Shown in pieces: positions 16,270-59,148 of a stretch of 64,000 nucleotides of DNA. Under the pieces are notes generated by a model. It saw only the letters and a list, made by a program, of their open reading frames with translations, did no database searches and was not told the origin of the DNA. Position 1 is the first letter of the stretch; every line of letters begins with the position of its first letter. Both the position numbers and the translations under genes were made by a program. Origin of the DNA: Pseudomonas bohemica (GTDB taxonomy: Bacteria > Pseudomonadota > Gammaproteobacteria > Pseudomonadales > Pseudomonadaceae); the NCBI RefSeq assembly GCF_002934685.1, contig NZ_NKHL01000115.1, positions 124,001 through 188,000 of the forward strand, read 5' to 3'.

Positions 16270-17685
16270 TCAAACGCTTTCGCCCTGCCCCGCAATGAAA
16301 CTGACACGGACCATAAGGCCACGCTCGGCTCCATCGTGCAGCGTAATTCGCGCCAGATGCGCCCTGCAGATTTCCCCAACGATCGCCAGCCCCAACCCCG
16401 CCCCTGAGCTCTGCTGATGGCGTCGGTAGAATCGCTCGAACACCCGGTCACGCTCATGCAGCGGAATGCCAGGGCCGTCGTCCTCGACCTCCAGCACACA
16501 AGGCGAATGCACCCGCAGCACGACATTGCCACCGGGCGGCGTGTGCGCCAGTGCGTTATCGACAAGATTGCTCAGCAGCTCATTGAGCAAGGTCGGCTCG
16601 CCGCGCATCCATATCGGTTCGTCCGCCTCCAGCGCCAATGCCACACCCCTTGCATGCGCCAACGGTGCCATCGCCATGCCCAGTTCCCGGGCGAGTTGGC
16701 TGAGGTCCAGTGACTGCGCACCGCCCTCGGCAATCGCACGCGCGCCGTTTTCAATACGCGCCAGCGACAGCAACTGGTTGGCCAGATGGGTCAGTTTATC
16801 GGTGCCGACTGCTGCGCTTTCCAGCGTGCTGCGCCAGGCTGCAGGGTCCTGATCGCGCAGCCCCAGCTCCAGCCGCGCTTTTAATGCCGCCAGCGGTGTG
16901 CGCAGTTCGTGGGACGCGTCGGCGATGAACTGGGCCTGACGCTCGAACTGCATGCGAAGGCGCTCGGTGAAGTGGTTCAGCGAACTCACCAACGGACGCA
17001 ATTCATGCTGAACCTCCACCAGCGGCAGCGAACGCAGGTCATCGGGTTGGCGCTCTTCGACGGCGGTGCGCAGACGATCCAGCGGACGCAAAGCGGCACT
17101 GACGGTAAACCACACCAGCAGCAACGCCCCGCTGCCAAGCATGCCCAGACGCAGCAAGGTGTCGGCCATCAGCCCACGGGCCATGTTCACCCGTTGCTCC
17201 TCGGTTTCAGCCACGCGAATTTCGGCGATGCCGTTCATGTTCGGCTCGCTGACCGCCTTGAGCAGGCTCACCACACGCACATCCTGGCCCTGATAGCGGG
17301 CGCTGTAGAACTTGGCCAGCGCCGGGTAATCGTCGGTGCGTGGGGTTCCTGGCGGCGGTGCTGGCAAATTTTCATAGCCGGAAATCAGCTTTTGATTGAT
17401 GTCGTTGACCTGGTAGTAAATGCGCCCGGCGCTGTCGTAGGCGAAGGTGTCGAGGGCGACATAGGGCACATCCGCGCTAAGGGTGCCGTCTCGTTCGGAC
17501 AAGCCTGCGGCAATGGTCCGCGCCGAGGCCAGCAGGGTTCGGTCGTAAGCAGTGTCGGCGGCTTCCCGGCCGTTCCAGTACGCGCTCATGCCGCTGGCGA
17601 TCATCAGCACCACCAGCAGCAAACCCAGGTTCCACAGCAGCCGCCAGCGCAGGCTGTTTTCCGCTGAGGGGAACGGGTTAAGCAT
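16270..17685 (-). CDS. tctE: Sensor histidine kinase of the TctE type
   Basis: This 471-residue membrane kinase probably senses external tricarboxylates. It has transmembrane segments at about 15-33 and 182-198 flanking a periplasmic domain of roughly 145 residues (2CSK_N type). The H-box FIADASHELRTPLAALKAR has His about 259. The N-box reads LLSNLVDNALAHTPPGG, and the G-boxes read DDGPGIP and GAGLGLAI. It overlaps tctD by 8 bp and lies divergent from tctCBA, the standard arrangement of the tricarboxylate regulatory pair. Confidence 0.9.
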   Translation of the reverse strand: MLNPFPSAENSLRWRLLWNLGLLLVVLMIASGMSAYWNGREAADTAYDRTLLASARTIAAGLSERDGTLSADVPYVALDTFAYDSAGRIYYQVNDINQKLISGYENLPAPPPGTPRTDDYPALAKFYSARYQGQDVRVVSLLKAVSEPNMNGIAEIRVAETEEQRVNMARGLMADTLLRLGMLGSGALLLVWFTVSAALRPLDRLRTAVEERQPDDLRSLPLVEVQHELRPLVSSLNHFTERLRMQFERQAQFIADASHELRTPLAALKARLELGLRDQDPAAWRSTLESAAVGTDKLTHLANQLLSLARIENGARAIAEGGAQSLDLSQLARELGMAMAPLAHARGVALALEADEPIWMRGEPTLLNELLSNLVDNALAHTPPGGNVVLRVHSPCVLEVEDDGPGIPLHERDRVFERFYRRHQQSSGAGLGLAIVGEICRAHLARITLHDGAERGLMVRVSFIAGQGESV

Positions 17686-18349
17686 CCCGGCTTTCCAGCA
17701 GGTAACCCAGCCCCCGGAACGTCACGATGGCGATGGGATGTCCGTCGAGTTTCTTGCGCAGGCGATGCACGTAGATTTCGATGGCATCGGCGCTGGCTTC
17801 CTCGTCCAGGCCAAAGACCTGCGCCGCCAGTTGTTCCTTGCTCATGACCCGGCCAGGGCGAGCGATCAGCGCTTCGAGCACCGATTGCTCGCGAGAAGTC
17901 AGGATCAACGCCTCGTCGCCAAGAGTGAAACGACGCGTGTCCAGATCGTAGACCAGCGCCCCACAACGCTGTTGACGTTCGCCGCCCAGCACGCTGCGGC
18001 GCAACAGCGCCTTGACCCGCGCTTCTAGTTCGGACAACTCGAAAGGTTTTGCCAGGTAATCGTCGGCCCCCAGATTCAGGCCATGAACGCGATCCTTGAC
18101 GTCACTGCGCGCGGTCAGCATCAGCACAGGTATGTTCTTGCCCCGCGTACGCAGTTTGGCCAACACCTCGAAACCGTCCATGCGCGGCAGGCCGACATCG
18201 AGAATCGCCACGGCATATTCTTCGCTGCTCAGGGCCAGGTCAGCGGCCACGCCATCATGCAGAATATCCACGGTCAGCCCGCTGCCCTTGAGCGCCAGCG
18301 CGACGCTTTCAGCCAGTTGCAGATGATCTTCGACAAGCAGGACACGCAT
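17678..18349 (-). CDS. tctD: Response regulator TctD (OmpR family)
   Basis: This 223-residue regulator has a receiver domain with the phospho-acceptor Asp51 in AILDVGLPRMDG and the conserved Lys in YLAKPFELSELEARV. The C-terminal winged helix includes LTSREQSVLEALIARPGRVMSKEQL and AIEIYVHRLRKKL. It is translationally coupled to tctE and probably activates the divergent tctCBA genes. Four evenly spaced TGAAAG boxes about 110-150 bp upstream of its start are plausible binding sites. Confidence 0.92.
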   Translation of the reverse strand: MRVLLVEDHLQLAESVALALKGSGLTVDILHDGVAADLALSSEEYAVAILDVGLPRMDGFEVLAKLRTRGKNIPVLMLTARSDVKDRVHGLNLGADDYLAKPFELSELEARVKALLRRSVLGGERQQRCGALVYDLDTRRFTLGDEALILTSREQSVLEALIARPGRVMSKEQLAAQVFGLDEEASADAIEIYVHRLRKKLDGHPIAIVTFRGLGYLLESRDA

Positions 18350-18829
18350 CGGATTCTCCCGATTGAGGCGTTGGGTGGACGCGGAGTTTACAGGCGCGAC
18401 GCCGCCTGTGAAGGCTGAAACAGCTGAAAACCCGCCGTTAAACTTCGAAAGTCCTCATTGAAAGCTTGATGAAAGGTAGTTGAAAGGTTGATGAAAGCTT
18501 CGCTGATTAGGATCCGGGCACGACTGGTTACGATTGCCCACCGTGTGGCATCCGTGACGTTTAGGATCGTGACGAAAAACGCCTCGATGCGTTTTCAACA
18601 ATAAAAACAATATCGGAGTCATCGGTGATGCCATCACTGCAAATCCCGGCCATAGCGCCGCCTGAATCCCATCCTGTTTTGAGTACACTTCGCCCCGCAG
18701 CGCAGTGCATCGTCACGTCCCGTTTTTCTGTAATGGAAATGCTCACCCCGGGCTTGCAACGCCGTGGAGCCACAGCCTGATCCATACCCCAAACGCATCC
18801 AAAAACAACAACTCCATCGGAGACCGACC
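18350..18829. other. 480-bp divergent regulatory region between tctD and tctC
   Basis: The region contains the TGAAAG box array (18459-18497) but no supported gene. Short minus-strand open frames near 18455-18885 overlap the tctC start and have no ribosome sites, so they are not called. A long tctC leader or a second promoter nearer tctC is likely. Confidence 0.6.
18458..18501. promoter_or_regulatory. Four TGAAAG boxes at exact 11-bp spacing (candidate TctD operator)
   Basis: TGAAAG occurs at 18459, 18470, 18481 and 18492, exactly 11 bp apart, so all four face the same side of the helix. The array is also two 22-bp direct repeats (18458-18479 and 18480-18501) matching at 18 of 22 positions. 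OmpR-family regulators bind direct repeats at 10-11-bp spacing, and a tctD-type gene starts 109 bp away. Confidence 0.65.
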
Positions 18830-19810
18830 ATGAATCTATCGTTGCGCCGTATCAGCGTTGCTGCCAGCTGCATGTTGGTGGCCACTCAATTGTGGGCGGC
18901 CGAGCCCAACCGCCCTGAATGCATCGCGCCGGCCTCTCCAGGTGGTGGCTTCGACCTGACCTGCAAACTGGCGCAAAGCGCGCTGGTCAACGAGAAGCTG
19001 CTGAGCAAGCCGATGCGCGTGACCTACATGCCTGGCGGCGTAGGCGCGGTGGCGTACAACGCGGTGGTGGCTCAGCGTCCTGCCGATGCGGGCACGCTGG
19101 TCGCCTGGTCCAGCGGTTCGCTGCTCAACCTGGCCCAAGGCAAGTTCGGTAAATTCGACGAAAACGCCGTACGCTGGCTGGCGGCCGTTGGCACCAGTTA
19201 TGGCGCCATCGCAGTCAAAGCCGACTCGCCCTACAAGAACCTGGACGATCTGGTCAAAGCCCTGAAAGCCGACCCGAGCAAAGTGGTCATCGGCTCCGGC
19301 GGCACCGTCGGTAGCCAGGATTGGATGCAGACCGCGCTGGTTGCCAAAGCGGCGGGTATCAACCCGCGCGACCTGCGTTACGTAGCACTGGAAGGCGGCG
19401 GTGAAATCGCCACGGCGCTGCTGGGCGGTCACATTCAAGTCGGCTCAACCGACATCGCCGACTCCATGCCGCATATCCTCAGCGGCGACATGCGCCTGCT
19501 GGCCGTGTTCTCCGACAAGCGTCTGGACGAGCCGGAAATGAAGAACATCCCAACCGCCAAAGAGCAAGGCTACGACATTGTCTGGCCGGTGGTGCGCGGC
19601 TTCTATCTCGGCCCGAAAGTCACCGACGAGCAATACAACTGGTGGAAAGACGCCTTCGACAAGCTGCTGGCGTCGGAAGACTTCGCCAAGTTGCGCGATC
19701 AGCGTGAGCTGTTCCCGTTCGCCATGACCGGCCCGGAGTTGGACACATACGTGAAGAAACAGGTTGCCGAATACAAAACGCTGGCCAAGGAATTCGGCCT
19801 GATTCAGTGA
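18830..19810 (+). CDS. tctC: Tripartite tricarboxylate transporter substrate-binding protein TctC
   Basis: TctC is the periplasmic binding protein of a TTT-family carrier for citrate-like acids. The start MNLSLRRISV is placed after a purine-rich GGAGACC site and gives 326 residues with a signal peptide ending near LWAAEP. The segment ECIAPASPGGGFDLTCKLAQ is the ligand loop of the Bug/TctC family. It is followed by GGVGAVAYN and VIGSGGTVGSQDW. It is first in tctCBA and divergent from tctDE. Confidence 0.94.
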   Translation: MNLSLRRISVAASCMLVATQLWAAEPNRPECIAPASPGGGFDLTCKLAQSALVNEKLLSKPMRVTYMPGGVGAVAYNAVVAQRPADAGTLVAWSSGSLLNLAQGKFGKFDENAVRWLAAVGTSYGAIAVKADSPYKNLDDLVKALKADPSKVVIGSGGTVGSQDWMQTALVAKAAGINPRDLRYVALEGGGEIATALLGGHIQVGSTDIADSMPHILSGDMRLLAVFSDKRLDEPEMKNIPTAKEQGYDIVWPVVRGFYLGPKVTDEQYNWWKDAFDKLLASEDFAKLRDQRELFPFAMTGPELDTYVKKQVAEYKTLAKEFGLIQ

Positions 19811-25090: not shown

Positions 25091-25618
25091 TCAGCGATTG
25101 CCGCCGCTTTGGCTGTCGTGGCCGCCGCGACCGAAGCCGCCGCCGCGCTGGAAGTTGCCTCCCGATGGCCTGCCCGGGCCGGGGCCACCCCCTCCGTGAT
25201 TACCATTCCAGCCCGGCCTCGGCCCGCCGCCGCCAGGTCCAGGGCCGGGAGGTGGCGGACGATAGCCATTGCCGCCCCCGTGATAGCCACCTGCGCCGCC
25301 ATTCCAGTGGCCGCCGCCGTAACCGGGGCGTCCGCCGTAACCCGGACCCGGACCGTAATAACGAGGGGGCGGTGCGTAATACCGAGGTGGTGAGTAATAG
25401 CGTGGCGCCGGGTAATAGCCGGGCGATGAGTAATAACGCGGCGATGAGTAGTAAACCGATGAGCCATAGACCGCTGCCGGCGCGTAAGGGCGATAGCCGT
25501 CATCCACGTAGCCGCCACTGTAAATCGGCTGCGTGTAGGTCTCTTGTTCGTAATAGCCTCCATAGCAACCTGCCAGAGACAACGTCATCAGAAGGGTAAG
25601 CAAGCTTCGTCGATACAT
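25091..25618 (-). CDS. Gly/Tyr/Pro-rich lipoprotein
   Basis: The start MYRRSLLTLLMTLSLAGC gives a 175-residue protein with a lipobox (SLAGC), so it should be lipidated at Cys18. The mature part is low-complexity: a Tyr-Pro-Ser segment (YYSSPRYYSSPGYYPAPRYY) and then a Gly-rich tail with HGGG, PGPGPGG and GRGG blocks. Such sequences are probably unstructured and surface- or envelope-facing. It is divergent from the guanidine riboswitch locus with about 280 bp between. Function is unknown. Confidence 0.75.
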   Translation of the reverse strand: MYRRSLLTLLMTLSLAGCYGGYYEQETYTQPIYSGGYVDDGYRPYAPAAVYGSSVYYSSPRYYSSPGYYPAPRYYSPPRYYAPPPRYYGPGPGYGGRPGYGGGHWNGGAGGYHGGGNGYRPPPPGPGPGGGGPRPGWNGNHGGGGPGPGRPSGGNFQRGGGFGRGGHDSQSGGNR

Positions 25619-25896
25619 GGCGGCCTCCTGGACCGCGATAGAGCTCGAACCAGCGGCGCTGGTCGGCGTTCCCGTAACTGCCGAGAACATAAGGTCAGAC
25701 TGCAAGATGCTCGACCAGTGCCCCAAGCCAAGCCTCAACCGCCGGACGGCGCCCCCCAAAGGTGCACGCGCCTCGCCTTTCAAAACCGGTATTTACGTTC
25801 GCGCGCCGACGATACAAGGCCCCAGCCGACTTGGCACAACTCTGGCTAGACAAACCTGGTGCAGGAGTCAACTCAGGTTCGCGGCACCACAATTTG

Positions 25897-54879: not shown

Positions 54880-54934
54880 CACTCTCATGGCAGCTAAGTG
54901 GCTGAATCACCGGTAGCTTTTCGTAATATCAATT

Positions 54935-55042
54935 TCAACGATGATCGCTACCAATGCGATTGACTTCTTAATGAACCAGAGTCGAGTAAAGTTAACTCCA
55001 TACCGAGTTACCAACTAACTGAATCGATCTGGAGCAACTGTC
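54935..55042 (+). promoter_or_regulatory. Promoter region of repeat-protein gene 1, duplicated before gene 2
   Basis: Blocks GATGATCG (54940-54947), ACTTCT, TAAT, GTAAA and CTCCATACC (54996-55004) recur in the same order before gene 2. The distance from GATGATCG to CTCCATACC is 56 bp in both. TGGAG lies eight bases before each ATG. The blocks are the likely shared promoter and regulatory sequence. Confidence 0.7.
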
Positions 55043-55480
55043 ATGAAACGCAACATGAAAACTAACAAACTCATCTTCGGCCTCGCTTTCTCCATCCTGG
55101 CAACTAGCGCTTTCGCACTTCCAGCGGTGGACGCACACCAACAAGTGAATGCATCCGTAGTTGCCGAAAATGGTTCTTCCCATACCAACATCGGCCGCCT
55201 CGCTACTGACGGCGCGGACCATGTAGGCGCCAACCGGGTTGCTGCTGACGGCTCGGATCACGTAGGCGCTAACCGCGTTGCTGCTGATGGTTCGGACCAC
55301 GTGGGCGCTAACCGCGTCGCTGCTGACGGCTCTGATCATGTGGGTGCAAATCGCGTTGCCGCTGATGGTTCTGACCATGTCGGTGCAAATCGTGTAGCTG
55401 CTGATGGCGCTGACCATGTTGGTGCAAATCGTCTCGCTGCTGATGGCGCTGATCACGTGGGTGCAAATCGCCTGAGCTGA
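55043..55480 (+). CDS. Exported 13-residue tandem-repeat protein 1
   Basis: This is a 145-residue protein. A signal peptide (KLIFGLAFSILATSAFA) ends near FALPA. A 25-residue linker (VDAHQQVNASVVAENGSSHTN) leads to seven perfect-length 13-residue repeats from residue 53. The consensus is (L/V)A(A/T)DG(A/S)DHVGANR, and the protein ends LS. Repeats stay constant in protein while codons vary between copies, so the peptide seems selected. No Cys or transmembrane anchor follows, so it should be periplasmic or secreted. I do not recognise a family. A terminator follows. Confidence 0.85.
   Translation: MKRNMKTNKLIFGLAFSILATSAFALPAVDAHQQVNASVVAENGSSHTNIGRLATDGADHVGANRVAADGSDHVGANRVAADGSDHVGANRVAADGSDHVGANRVAADGSDHVGANRVAADGADHVGANRLAADGADHVGANRLS
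55199..55471 (+). repeat. Seven 39-bp tandem repeats encoding DGxDHVGANR units
   Basis: Seven in-frame 39-bp units run without interruption through the 3' two thirds of gene 1. They differ mainly at third codon positions. The pattern is coding, with no spacers, so it is not a CRISPR array. Confidence 0.9.
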
Positions 55481-55500
55481 TTTTTCTGGCGGTTCTCTCC

Positions 55501-55530
55501 AGCCCGGCTTATGCCGGGCTTAGTTTTTTC
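55501..55530 (+). terminator. Rho-independent terminator of repeat-protein gene 1
   Basis: AGCCCGGC-TTAT-GCCGGGCT is a perfect 8-bp stem followed by TAG and six T, 21 bp after the stop. Confidence 0.92.
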
Positions 55531-55795
55531 TGCCGCCACATATCGTTACAAGCGCAGTGGCTTATGGGCTTCTCATTGAGGCCAGCAATTTAATGCCCGT
55601 GAACAGCAAATTTCAGCATGATTGCAGCGTATCCCGTGGCATCAAGCAAGCTGATCGCAAAAAAATTCAAAACCACATAACTTCAAATCTGTCAATAGCA
55701 TGCTTTGCCATTTTTGACAAAAATCGCCCCATTTCGAATCAAAATCCGCTGGAGCGCTTTAAAAACGGGCGCTGCGGCCAACTATCATTTTCGCC
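55531..55795. other. AT-rich gap between the two repeat-protein genes
   Basis: The DNA is visibly lower in GC than the chromosome around it. A 107-codon open frame crosses it but runs into the duplicated promoter and lacks a ribosome site, so it is not called. Nothing else is supported. Confidence 0.5.
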
Positions 55796-55900
55796 GATGA
55801 TCGTTAGCAACCTTGTTAACTTCTACTTAATCCATGCGCGCGTAAACTTAGCTCCATACCCAAGTGAAGAAAATTATTGAACTTCTGTGGAGCTAACATC
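55796..55900 (+). promoter_or_regulatory. Promoter region of repeat-protein gene 2 (copy of that of gene 1)
   Basis: GATGATCG (55796-55803) and CTCCATACC (55852-55860) lie 56 bp apart, as before gene 1, with the same intermediate blocks (AACTTCT, TTAAT, GTAAA). TGGAG is eight bases before the ATG. Confidence 0.7.
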
Positions 55901-56302
55901 ATGAAAACTTCGAACCTGGTATTTGCTTTTAGTCTGTCGATTCTGGCGTCGAGCGCATTCGCTCTGCCTGTTTCGGATACTCACGCTGTATTGAACGGCA
56001 ATGTTGTAGCCGAGGGCGGTTCTTCTCACACCAATGCCTCTCACACTGGCAGCTATCGTCAGGCTTCTGATGGTTCCGATCACGTTGGTGCCAACCGCTT
56101 GGCCTCTGACGGCGCTGACCGCGTAGGCAACAACCGTCAGGCTGCCGATGGCGCTGACCATGTCGGCGCCAACCGCCTGGCCTCCGATGGCGCCGACCGC
56201 GTAGGCAACAACCGTCAGGCTGCCGATGGCGCTGACCACGTCGGTGCCAACCGCCTGGCCTCTGACGGCGCCGACCGCGTAGGCAATAACCGCGTCAGCT
56301 GA
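55901..56302 (+). CDS. Exported 13-residue tandem-repeat protein 2
   Basis: This 133-residue paralogue of the previous protein has a signal peptide (MKTSNLVFAFSLSILASSAFA) and the linker VVAEGGSSHTN, which matches gene 1. Six 13-residue repeats alternate between two kinds: (Q)A(A/S)DG(A/S)DHVGANR and LASDGADRVGNNR, so the true unit is 26 residues (three copies). It ends VS. Gene 1 has only the first kind. Within each pair the His becomes Arg and Ala becomes Asn. The DNA of the 78-bp units is nearly identical, suggesting recent internal duplication. Confidence 0.85.
   Translation: MKTSNLVFAFSLSILASSAFALPVSDTHAVLNGNVVAEGGSSHTNASHTGSYRQASDGSDHVGANRLASDGADRVGNNRQAADGADHVGANRLASDGADRVGNNRQAADGADHVGANRLASDGADRVGNNRVS
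56060..56293 (+). repeat. Three 78-bp alternating repeats in gene 2
   Basis: Six 39-bp units run as A-B-A-B-A-B (residues 54-131). The second and third 78-bp units differ by only a few bases, mostly silent. Confidence 0.85.
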
Positions 56303-56341
56303 TTCCCGCTTTACACGTTCCACCTCCCGAAACTCCCTTTG

Positions 56342-56369
56342 TAGCCCGACTGATGTCGGGCTTTTTTTG
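56342..56369 (+). terminator. Rho-independent terminator of repeat-protein gene 2
   Basis: AGCCCGAC-TGAT-GTCGGGCT is a perfect stem followed by seven T, about 40 bp after the stop. Confidence 0.92.
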
Positions 56370-56508: not shown

Positions 56509-57132
56509 ATGTCAGACGATATCCATTTCTACGAACCTTCCAAGGGGCACGGTTTGCCCCACGACCCATTCAACGCCATCGTCGGCCCGCGCCCCATCGG
56601 CTGGATCTCCTCCCACGACGCACAGGGCAAGCTCAATCTCGCGCCCTACAGCTTCTTCAACGCCTTCAACTATGTTCCGCCGATCATTGGCTTCTGCAGC
56701 ATCGGTCGAAAAGACAGCCTGAACAACATCGAACAGACCGGCGAATTCGTCTGGAACCTGGCTACCCGCCCGCTCGCCGAACAAATGAACATGAGCTGTG
56801 CCGCAGTGGCGGCCGACGTCAACGAGTTCGAACTGGCCAATCTCACAGCCGAACCCTCGCGTATCGTCTCGGTTCCACGAGTGAAGGAAACGCCGGTGGC
56901 GTTCGAATGCAAAGTGACGCAAATCGTCCAGTTGCAACGCGCCGATAAAGAGGTCGTGCCGAGCTGGTTGATTCTGGGAGAAGTGGTGGCGATTCATATC
57001 GCCAAACGGCTTCTCAAGGATGGCATCTATGACACCGCAGCCGGGGAGCCAATCCTGCGGGGTGGCGGCCCGGCAGATTATTTCCAGCTGAGCCCCGAAT
57101 CGCTGTTCAAAATGTACCGGCCAAAAGCCTGA
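56509..57132 (+). CDS. Flavin reductase family protein
   Basis: This 207-residue protein has an FMN-binding split-barrel fold (NAIVGPRPIGWISSHDAQGKLNLAPYSFFNAF, in successive blocks, then GEFVWNLATRPLAEQMN). It probably reduces flavin with NAD(P)H or binds FMN for a partner oxygenase; no partner is adjacent. The start MSDDIHFYEPS is used because upstream codons look like non-coding sequence. Confidence 0.88.
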   Translation: MSDDIHFYEPSKGHGLPHDPFNAIVGPRPIGWISSHDAQGKLNLAPYSFFNAFNYVPPIIGFCSIGRKDSLNNIEQTGEFVWNLATRPLAEQMNMSCAAVAADVNEFELANLTAEPSRIVSVPRVKETPVAFECKVTQIVQLQRADKEVVPSWLILGEVVAIHIAKRLLKDGIYDTAAGEPILRGGGPADYFQLSPESLFKMYRPKA

Positions 57133-57496: not shown

Positions 57497-57850
57497 TCAG
57501 CCCGCCATCCGCGCGCTTGCAGCCTCAATCGCCGCCTCGCCTTGGGCTATTGTCACGTTGGCGAACGTCTGAAAATCCAGGTGGCTCACCAACCCCTCGG
57601 TAACAAGCTCTGAAAAGATATTCAGCTCCGGCGCAGCGAACCAGTCGCTCATCGCCGATTTATCTGCCCACAGCCCGCTGATCACCCACACATCGTCTTC
57701 GGTCATGGATTTCTGCAAAGCAAAGTGCAGGCACCCGGCGGCCCTGGCGGACGTGCTGCTCAGCGTGTTCAGACGCGCGCCTAATTGCGCACTGTTTCCA
57801 ACGCTGGCGCGAAGGGTTACCAGGTGGGTCACGAAGGGAGTGCTATGCAT
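57497..57850 (-). CDS. Antibiotic biosynthesis monooxygenase (ABM) domain protein
   Basis: This 117-residue dimeric ferredoxin-like ABM protein has the pattern VTLRASVGNSAQLGARL, then ARAAGCLHFALQKS and VWVISGLWADKSAMSDWF. ABM proteins act as small oxygenases or quinone-handling enzymes. The substrate is unknown. It is probably not cotranscribed with the upstream small gene, because a 124-bp gap lies between. Confidence 0.85.
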   Translation of the reverse strand: MHSTPFVTHLVTLRASVGNSAQLGARLNTLSSTSARAAGCLHFALQKSMTEDDVWVISGLWADKSAMSDWFAAPELNIFSELVTEGLVSHLDFQTFANVTIAQGEAAIEAASARMAG

Positions 57851-58182
57851 GATCTGGGCTCCTTTTGATCAGCCGCAATCAAAGAACACGCTGCGGCCAG
57901 GAGTGAAGATTAGAGGCCAGGGCGCAATGCCCGATAGCCAATTACTGCCCGGTTATTGCCTCATTCTGCGCAAGTGTCGTGCAATAACGAGCCCTCACGG
58001 CTAAGACCTGAGGGCTCGCAGTCGGGACTTTCAAGCAATCGGCCCTGCTGGGCAGCGCGTTTCATCGGTCAATAGATGACCATGCTGCAGAATCAGGCAA
58101 TCATCCGACAGGATTCGCATAACGCATGCGCTTGCACAAAAATAAGCTGTATCGCATCAATGCTTCGCCAGAGGAGTTCTCC
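57851..58182. other. 332-bp divergent region before the AraC gene
   Basis: GAGCCCTCA (57989-57997) and TGAGGGCTC (58009-58017) form a perfect 9-bp inverted repeat. No gene is supported. The region probably holds the promoters of the divergent ABM and AraC genes. Confidence 0.55.
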
Positions 58183-59148
58183 ATGTTGCCAACTGCTGCG
58201 GCTGCCGCCATGCCGGACGCCATGCCAGGCACGTTGCCTATCCCCGAACTGAGCGCTCACATGGAGCAACAGCGTGCCGAACTCGCGGAGCTGATCCGCC
58301 GCCACGCGCCCACCGATGGCAGCTTCCAAACCGTGATCAAGTCGTTGTTCATGGTTCGTCATGATCGCCCGTTGCAGTCGGTGCCAGGTCTTGTGCAGCC
58401 AGCGCTGTGCATCATGGCCCAAGGCCGCAAGGACGTGACGCTGGGTGGCGAACTGTTCACCTACGACCCGCTGAACTATCTGGTGCTGTCGGTGGCGCTG
58501 CCCATCAGCGGCAAGGTCATCCATGCCACGCCCGAAGATCCGCATCTGGCCATGCGCCTGGACATCGATCCAGCTGACATCAATGCGCTGATCGCGGAAG
58601 CCGGTCCCATGAGCGTGCCAACGCGCCCCAGCGGTCGCGGGATGTATGTCGAGCGAATCGACTCGCAGTTGCTGGATGCGGTGATTCGCCTGATTCGCCT
58701 GCTGGACAGTCCAAAAGACATCCCGATGCTGGCGCCGCTGATCACCCGCGAAATCCTTTACCGCCTGCTGCGCGGCAGTGAGGGCTATCGGCTGTACGAA
58801 ATTGCAATCGCCAATTGTCAAACCCATCGCGTGACCCAAGCGATCAAGTGGCTGAACGACAATTTCCAGCAACCGTTGCGCATCGAGGAACTCGCTCGGG
58901 AGGTAAACCTCAGCGTCTCTACGCTGCACCACCGTTTCAAGGCCGTGACGGCCATGAGCCCGTTGCAGTATCAGAAACAGCTGAGATTGCAGGAAGCCCG
59001 GCGCCTGATGCTGGCCGACGGGCTCGAGGCGTCGGCAGCCGGTTACCGGGTGGGCTACGAGAGCCCGTCTCAGTTCAGCCGCGAATACAGTCGTCTGTTC
59101 GGCGCGCCCCCCTTGCGGGACTTGGCGCGCTTGCGCAAAACCATCTGA
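58183..59148 (+). CDS. AraC family transcriptional regulator
   Basis: This 321-residue regulator has an N-terminal AraC_N-type domain (QSVPGLVQPALCIMAQGRKDVTLGG, in two blocks). Its two C-terminal HTH motifs are LRIEELAREVNLSVSTLHHRFKAVT and RLMLADGLEASAAGYRVGYESPSQFSREYSRLFG, each read in parts. The start MLPTAAAAAM follows a strong AGAGGAG site. It converges on the aldehyde dehydrogenase gene with adjacent stops. Confidence 0.9.
   Translation: MLPTAAAAAMPDAMPGTLPIPELSAHMEQQRAELAELIRRHAPTDGSFQTVIKSLFMVRHDRPLQSVPGLVQPALCIMAQGRKDVTLGGELFTYDPLNYLVLSVALPISGKVIHATPEDPHLAMRLDIDPADINALIAEAGPMSVPTRPSGRGMYVERIDSQLLDAVIRLIRLLDSPKDIPMLAPLITREILYRLLRGSEGYRLYEIAIANCQTHRVTQAIKWLNDNFQQPLRIEELAREVNLSVSTLHHRFKAVTAMSPLQYQKQLRLQEARRLMLADGLEASAAGYRVGYESPSQFSREYSRLFGAPPLRDLARLRKTI

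Follow-up and report, generated by a model that had tools for sequence, protein, structure and literature searches.

MexT is a redox-responsive LysR-type regulator whose best-known target is the efflux pump mexEF-oprN; in P. aeruginosa the pump is induced by aldehydes, the consensus ATCA(N)7CGAT was derived from footprinting, and at least 40 further targets exist, among which exported repeat proteins are not mentioned as a class in the available part of the source (PMC11144800). Here, we describe two adjacent genes (gene 1 and gene 2) coding for predicted exported tandem-repeat proteins in a 64,000-nucleotide stretch of Pseudomonas bohemica (assembly GCF_002934685.1, contig NZ_NKHL01000115.1, positions 124,001 to 188,000; hereafter the window, in whose own numbering positions are given). 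The pair resembles the MexT regulon in that both promoters carry ATCA-N7-CGAT, and in that genes for detoxifying enzymes are found behind the same promoter profile. Judging from these promoter sequences, the family to which both genes belong is probably controlled by a regulator of the MexT type and induced by electrophile or redox stress.

Other described proteins resemble the repeats themselves. PtrA (PA2808) is periplasmic, contributes to copper tolerance and is strongly induced by zinc, according to the available parts of three reports (PMC7744410, PMC8531726, PMC8872213). Mature PtrA opens with AEGG(A/S/G)DR, which is similar to a single unit from the AEGGSDRLIENR subfamily, but this stretch is present in one copy and followed by another tail. 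When the family alignment was compared with PHROGs, Pfam and NCBIfam, weak matches were scattered and only PtrA exceeded a curated cut-off, for distant members: loci L070 and L078 encode three proteins that score 35.4 to 36.6 bits against the PtrA N-terminal model NF041599 (cut-off 31 bits), whereas the window proteins do not match it. The RTX/MARTX repeats (PF07634) are weakly matched by 3 of 30 family members (best E 9.7e-5) but not by the window protein; the family unit has 13 residues, and no toxin context was seen. Behind an exact site of a longer MexT-like consensus (below) lies the gene for a 219-residue exported-type protein of genus g9 (L338, 1611-2267), which consists of about eight 18-residue units opening with VAENGSS, the word found in the linker of gene 1, but otherwise shares little sequence with the window family. 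It possibly corresponds to P. aeruginosa PA4881, a reported MexT target. Pfam and NCBIfam searches with both window proteins gave nothing above chance, in line with the original prediction (made from the sequence alone), which could not name the family. No PDB sequence matched at E up to 1, phage records gave three matches to gene 1 at E 0.2 to 0.9 and none to a divergent relative, and Rfam matches were all sub-threshold. Neither six family peptide strings nor the PtrA domain names occurred in the literature searched.

The architecture first proposed, that of two adjacent signal-peptide paralogues with a shared linker and seven or six 13-residue repeats, is borne out by the open reading frames, the alignment and the tandem DNA arrays of period 39, which hold 7 and 6 units in register. 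The two proteins are 70% identical across their matched part, and in gene 2 H-type (DHVGANRLAS) and R-type (DRVGNNRQAA) units alternate, forming a 26-residue super-repeat. A search for the repeat across Pseudomonas, which the original prediction had called for, found relatives encoded in 363 of 398 sampled genomes. In a sample of 59 Pseudomonadaceae genomes, 6 of 19 genera were positive, one by a single weak match; in a sample of the order, 2 of 115 genomes were, both Pseudomonas. Within its own 6.49-Mb genome, the protein search returned the window pair as two clear copies. The pair belongs to a family of tandem-repeat proteins that extends across the Pseudomonadaceae and whose signal peptides predict export. 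Most of the genomes sampled from this well-studied genus encode the family, yet the window proteins fit no model of Pfam or NCBIfam.

Upstream of the family genes lies a conserved promoter block of about 85 bp, newly recognised here. It was defined on 77 loci, all titled Pseudomonas and retained out of at least 141 confirmed; the 77 upstream regions do not include two that are N-masked (L044) or six from a long subfamily. A longer subfamily (L043, L047-L049, L051, L066; 313-392 residues) has an extra C-terminal segment and is without the block. The 77 regions, many of them from close relatives, have in common ACTATCAnTTtcagCgATgnTcgnTAgcAatcnnaTTnACTTCttaatAA...cGcGTAncaTtnnCTCCATaCC, with a mean conservation of 1.33 bits per column in the block, compared with 0.45 on its upstream side and 0.91 from its end to the start codon; in 62 of them TATCA and CTCCATACC are spaced 69 apart. 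The left-hand pattern of the block has two sites in the P. bohemica genome, both in the promoters of the pair (reversed control: 0), and occurs in 18 of 20 chosen genomes (control: 0), with a family gene downstream in all 30 loci read. Since this pattern is unique to the pair in its genome and relatives are found in hundreds of genomes, chance is excluded. The upstream sequences first noted as shared, with identical spacing, were recovered in both promoters (GATGATCG to CTCCATACC, 56 bp); the conserved block itself begins at about 54925, a little ahead of the start first given (54935). Likewise, the promoter likeness read as the mark of a twin system is meaningful, but the pair is one case of a family-wide promoter class. 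A sigma-70 scan did not pick out the block; other sigma factors and PhoB were considered and dropped, and no PprAB motif was obtained from the available parts of the literature.

A profile of the block (R1) was built from 30 promoters of divergent subfamilies, all of them family promoters, picked by eye among the subfamilies with the block (alignment A4, which is nearly gap-free; L052, L055, L166-L168, L174, L177-L179, L181, L184 and L185 were excluded). At E up to 0.01, this search for the promoter module, also proposed originally, gave matches in all 25 Pseudomonas genomes (that of P. bohemica included) and none in the 13 genomes taken from other families; in the Pseudomonadaceae sample, 15 of 59 genomes and 7 of 19 genera matched, some being sources of the training set. 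Among 27 R1 loci, 25 contain a repeat gene (another kind of repeat in L244) and two do not (L235, L236); with the seven training loci set aside (L228, L229, L232, L240, L246, L248, L249), the count is 18 of 20. The profile detects members that sequence search misses: it leads to exported-type repeat proteins in two genera without a protein match (L230, L237, L244), and its top three matches in the P. bohemica genome all lie upstream of family genes, the third being a member on contig C40 (259193-259265, minus strand; L188) of 73 residues and two units, predicted exported, for which the protein search gave E 0.14, below any threshold.

In 24 relatives, R1 gave 98 matches, of which two (L253, L320) lie at contig ends. 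Of the 96 that are readable, 67 are upstream of family genes, and these include all 61 with E below 1e-5. The other 29, every one at E 1e-5 or more, precede non-family genes, which were sorted into groups by eye: seven azoreductase-like (in seven genomes), two GST/hydroquinone-reductase-like, one pirin-like, six of one exported type, three of a 60-residue exported type, three of another short type, one DUF2790, two that each represent a type of their own also matched in the P. bohemica genome, and four others. Of the six groups beside the three enzyme types, four occur behind R1 matches in P. bohemica as well. Representatives of the groups match Flavodoxin_2, GST, Pirin and DUF2790 in Pfam, the remaining groups nothing. 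Four of the seven weaker matches in the P. bohemica genome fall in the same recurrent groups. The non-family genes are mostly not random. The matching promoters form a shared class that also marks detoxifying genes. The recurrent genes (L288, L291, L294-L316, L318; L189-L191 and L194 in P. bohemica), several of them small, exported and without Pfam match, could be further targets of the same regulator, going by their promoters.

ATCA-N7-CGAT lies at the start of the block, where conservation is highest, and is present in 60 of the 77 upstream regions versus 0.26% of shuffles. A longer MexT-like consensus reads ATCA-N5-GTCGAT-N4-ACYAT. It has one exact site in the P. bohemica genome, upstream of the third member, and no site in the window, either exact or with up to one mismatch. 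Across 20 chosen genomes, 57 sites were found at one mismatch or less versus 3 for the reversed control; of the 16 exact ones, eight precede family genes and one precedes the repeat protein of L338. It was the non-family genes behind the weaker R1 matches that led to the MexT reading. The promoter gives the family a probable regulator and a probable inducing stress; it points to electrophile or redox stress, which was absent from the functions originally proposed.

Expression data from another strain bear on this reading. In P. fluorescens In5 facing Rhizoctonia, RNA-seq showed an azoreductase induced 142-fold, a pirin 43-fold and the hydroquinone reductase YqjG 23.5-fold, together with a "phage infection protein" (32-fold) and several small proteins which, with few exceptions, are predicted to be secreted (available part of PMC5557065). 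The kinds of enzyme co-induced there are those found behind R1 promoters, and the small secreted proteins are likely candidates for membership of the repeat family, as far as that part of the report describes them. The genes up-regulated by InvF likewise include one for a phage infection protein that has a Sec/SPI signal (PMC8490769, available part).

We give about an even chance to the exported repeat proteins being the envelope output of a MexT-type electrophile-stress regulon, the shared regulation being held with higher confidence than the molecular role. Toxic aldehydes, quinones or similar compounds would reach the cell and a MexT-type LysR activator would respond, acting at the site in the promoter block; the repeat family would be switched on together with azoreductase, pirin/quercetinase and hydroquinone-reductase-type enzymes, and its product would most likely work outside the cytoplasm, as a multivalent chain of repeats by which the envelope is protected or remodelled. 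An envelope matrix protein was among the functions first put forward, and such a role may apply. If true, exported repeat proteins would be a new class of effector in a response known for efflux and detoxification. A bolder version, which we consider doubtful, is that in the Pseudomonadaceae this family makes up a large, overlooked share of what the MexT-type electrophile response produces, serving as an envelope sponge or shield that catches reactive aldehydes or quinones outside the cytoplasm. Each unit would then offer one basic nucleophilic side chain (position 5) beside acidic turns, and unit number and chemistry would therefore be kept while the sequence drifts. Some species encode several family members per genome.

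A number of results weigh against the envelope output of a MexT-type regulon. The strict consensus is found in only 20 of the 30 A4 promoters, and in the last batch of loci read it occurs at 13 of the 40 family loci and at 8 of the 28 others. Of the 16 exact sites of the longer consensus, two precede genes of the short type above and four precede other genes, with one unread. Among 97 loci searched, R1 reaches 44 bits or more at 45 of the 77 family loci, training loci counted, and two subfamilies are without the block. As to In5, the phage infection protein and the small secreted proteins are candidates only, in the part of the report available. The structure models do not help either. For gene 1, AlphaFold2 gave a mean pLDDT of 62.6, with one model of the five showing a beta-solenoid whose repeats score about 80 and the others reaching 32 to 44; for gene 2, the mean pLDDT was 48.1 and the pTM 0.13. 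The gene 1 model had a best Foldseek E of 0.54 and, with VIA-align, a best Z of 9.4, the partner being an insect antifreeze protein (90 residues superposed at rmsd 8.5). AlphaFold2 is described as giving confident but unrealistic solenoids for perfect repeats (PMC11795689, available part); given this artefact, the single model in five and the unconfident result for gene 2, the solenoid was distrusted, and as modelled here AlphaFold gives no trustworthy fold for the window proteins.

Some of these points would fit a promoter class that answers to another regulator or signal, the proteins then being constitutive or growth-phase matrix components without any link to electrophiles. LysR sites in general read ATC-N9-GAT, and because this core is common to them, a LysR regulator other than MexT is possible behind the block; conservation also covers most of the block outside the LysR-like site, and ten of the 30 A4 promoters are without the strict consensus. 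What speaks against this explanation, and leads us to rate it as rather unlikely, is that a profile built from family promoters only recurs before azoreductase, pirin and hydroquinone-reductase-like genes, the same kinds as are co-induced in In5 (PMC5557065, as far as available).

The repeat unit itself bears on the remaining explanations. Between the units of gene 1, pN/pS is 0.043 (pS 0.71, pN 0.03; six of seven units compared), and between those of gene 2 it is 0.22 (pS 0.56, pN 0.12; five of six), the last unit of either gene being excluded. Because silent change between the gene 1 units is high and amino-acid change low, the repeat peptide is under purifying selection, just as had been read from its varying codons, and the anticipated bias towards synonymous change is present. 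Over 990 units of 133 proteins, weighted per protein, the most constant positions are G2 (1.0), D4 (0.98), A12 (0.97) and D1 (0.93); position 5 is H in 0.55, R in 0.42 and K in 0.02 (0.99 together), and position 10 is R in 0.80 and A in 0.12. More distant relatives have units such as AEDGFDRTNINR, AEDGSDRTPGIR and DSGFERTGGK beside that of the AEGGSDRLIENR subfamily. Relatives of gene 1 have 6 to 9 units, which match poorly by position across species. What seems to count is less the exact sequence than the number of units and their general chemistry, A-x-[DEG]-G-x-D with one basic side chain. Hydrophilin or LEA-like proteins are strongly hydrophilic, with more than 6% Gly; the window proteins contain 13-14% Gly and have GRAVY values of -0.36 and -0.77, the hydrophilin definition using another scale.

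With Arg at a fixed place in most units, uninterrupted arrays (a basic residue is present at the unit ends of both window proteins) and a peptide strongly conserved against its codons, the proteins could be precursors, cut by a protease after the unit Arg to free many 13-residue signal or antimicrobial peptides; antimicrobial peptides were suggested for the small secreted In5 proteins by the authors of that study (PMC5557065, available part). Yet 21 of the 133 proteins have Arg or Lys at this place in less than 30% of their units, so that release after Arg, one of the roles first put forward, does not hold as a general one. Members without unit-end Arg carry the same promoter block (L080, L202, L204, L211, L222, L241), unit length varies (L150, L230, L237, L338), and no protease recurs as a neighbour across the 77 loci, 31 of which have the MFS transporter and the flavin reductase on the two sides of the family gene. 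We therefore regard precursors as improbable.

A further explanation is a periplasmic metal or calcium buffer similar to PtrA. The L070 and L078 proteins pass NF041599 through AEGGSDR after the signal peptide, and the copper and zinc links of PtrA given above would suit such a role. The matched stretch is, however, partly signal peptide, none of 15 PtrA-type loci has the promoter block, the commonest recurrent neighbours of the family include no metal genes, and the window proteins contain no Cys. With Arg in place of His at position 5 in so many units, metal binding through Asp-His, as first suggested, fails as a general role, and we hold a metal buffer to be very improbable.

In P. bohemica and seven relatives, a family gene (the third member in the former) is divergent from an asmA-like gene, whose product in the relatives is 68-73% identical to the P. 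bohemica copy. At these loci, the promoter DNA has a mean pairwise identity of 0.76, the signal peptide one of 0.69 and the mature protein one of 0.48. This contrast between DNA and protein is only indicative because the control stretch did not align well, its identity being 0.72 across the aligned columns and 0.39 relative to the shorter length. Such divergence of the mature parts between species could fit a surface or secreted recognition protein in antagonistic coevolution with a phage, bacteriocin, predator or host. The label "phage infection protein", used in two Pseudomonas RNA studies, would fit as well if it applies to this repeat family. Amino-acid change between repeats is low within close species, though, and the detoxifying co-targets point elsewhere, which makes this explanation hard to credit. 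Repeat expansion without function, for which the varying unit number might speak, can practically be dismissed, being in the main refuted by the selection on the repeats; the conserved promoter and the spread of the family also speak against it.

At the 31 loci with the MFS transporter and the flavin reductase, some lineages have one copy of the family gene and others two. The position of the family gene in the window is thus old, and the difference in copy number suggests a tandem duplication of the whole transcription unit. Among plasmids there is one clear relative, on a Pseudomonas asturiensis plasmid (L008), which has the same promoter (68.7 bits with R1), and promoter and gene can, by this example, apparently move together as a cassette. 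Matches in 54 other plasmid records were judged to be driven by composition. The order of flavin reductase, monooxygenase-type and AraC_N genes beside the pair (Table 1) is reminiscent of P. aeruginosa electrophile-response genes.

Table 1. Positions of the two repeat genes, their promoter and terminator elements, and neighbouring genes in the window.
Feature	Position	Strand	Evidence
Promoter block, gene 1	54925..55015	+	R1 profile, 67.3 bits
ATCA-N7-CGAT (MexT consensus), gene 1 block	54928-54942	+	
GATGATCG, gene 1 block	54940	+	
ATTGACTTCTTAAT, gene 1 block	54959-54972	+	
GTAAAGT, -10-like element, gene 1 block	54986-54992	+	
CTCCATACC, gene 1 block	54996-55004	+	
GGAGC, Shine-Dalgarno-like, gene 1	55031..55035	+	
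Gene 1, 145-aa repeat protein, predicted exported	55043..55480	+	ORF
Signal peptide, gene 1, Sec/SPI type, assigned by eye	55043..55117	+	Conserved in alignment A1
Linker VVAENGSSHTN, gene 1	55157..55189	+	Sequence, alignment
Seven 13-residue repeats DG(A/S)DHVGANR(V/L)AA, gene 1	55208..55471	+	
Terminator-like hairpin, gene 1, then TAGTTTTTT	55501..55520	+	
Promoter block, gene 2	55779..55866	+	R1 profile, 64.7 bits
ATCA-N7-CGAT (MexT consensus), gene 2 block	55784-55798	+	
GATGATCG, gene 2 block	55796	+	
GTTAACTTCTACTTAAT, gene 2 block	55815-55831	+	
GTAAACT, gene 2 block	55842-55848	+	
CTCCATACC, gene 2 block	55852-55860	+	
GGAGC, Shine-Dalgarno-like, gene 2	55889..55893	+	
Gene 2, 133-aa repeat protein, predicted exported, gene 1 paralogue	55901..56302	+	ORF
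Signal peptide, gene 2, assigned by eye	55901..55963	+	Conserved in alignment A1
Linker VVAEGGSSHTN, gene 2	56003..56035	+	Sequence, alignment
Six 13-residue repeats, gene 2	56069..56293	+	
Terminator-like hairpin, gene 2, then TTTTTT	56343..56362	+	
Flavin reductase beside pair	56509-57129	+	
Antibiotic-biosynthesis-monooxygenase-type protein near pair	57497-57850	-	
AraC_N regulator near pair	58126-59145	+	

In the gene 1 block, CTCCATACC is probably the position of the transcription start. The most likely start of gene 1 is 55043, which gives the same distance to GGAGC as in the relatives; an ATG four codons further on (55055) is the position aligning with the relatives' start. Both terminator-like hairpins have 8-pair stems, with 7 and 6 G-C pairs for genes 1 and 2, and are followed by T runs, each gene having a terminator-like hairpin of its own, as had been proposed; the terminator scan gave 5 sites versus 2.1 (sd 1.8) in shuffles, which is weak taken alone. 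Separate transcription units, each with its own promoter, are the best explanation for the two repeat genes. The lower G+C content attributed to the region applies to the intergenic DNA (0.46 and 0.45) but not to the genes (0.57 and 0.60, against 0.60 for the window). Long open frames of 154 and 149 codons also run over both repeat genes on the reverse strand (54992-55456 and 55874-56323), probably as a by-product of the periodic codons.

Two further tandem arrays were seen elsewhere in the window. An array of about 18 bp units (25367-25450) lies in a lipoprotein-like open reading frame of 199 residues, rich in Tyr, Gly, Ser and Pro (25091-25690, minus strand). The other, a short 11-bp array (18459-18500), sits between a response-regulator-like open reading frame (17678-18349, minus strand) and an exported-protein-like one (18830-19810, plus strand).

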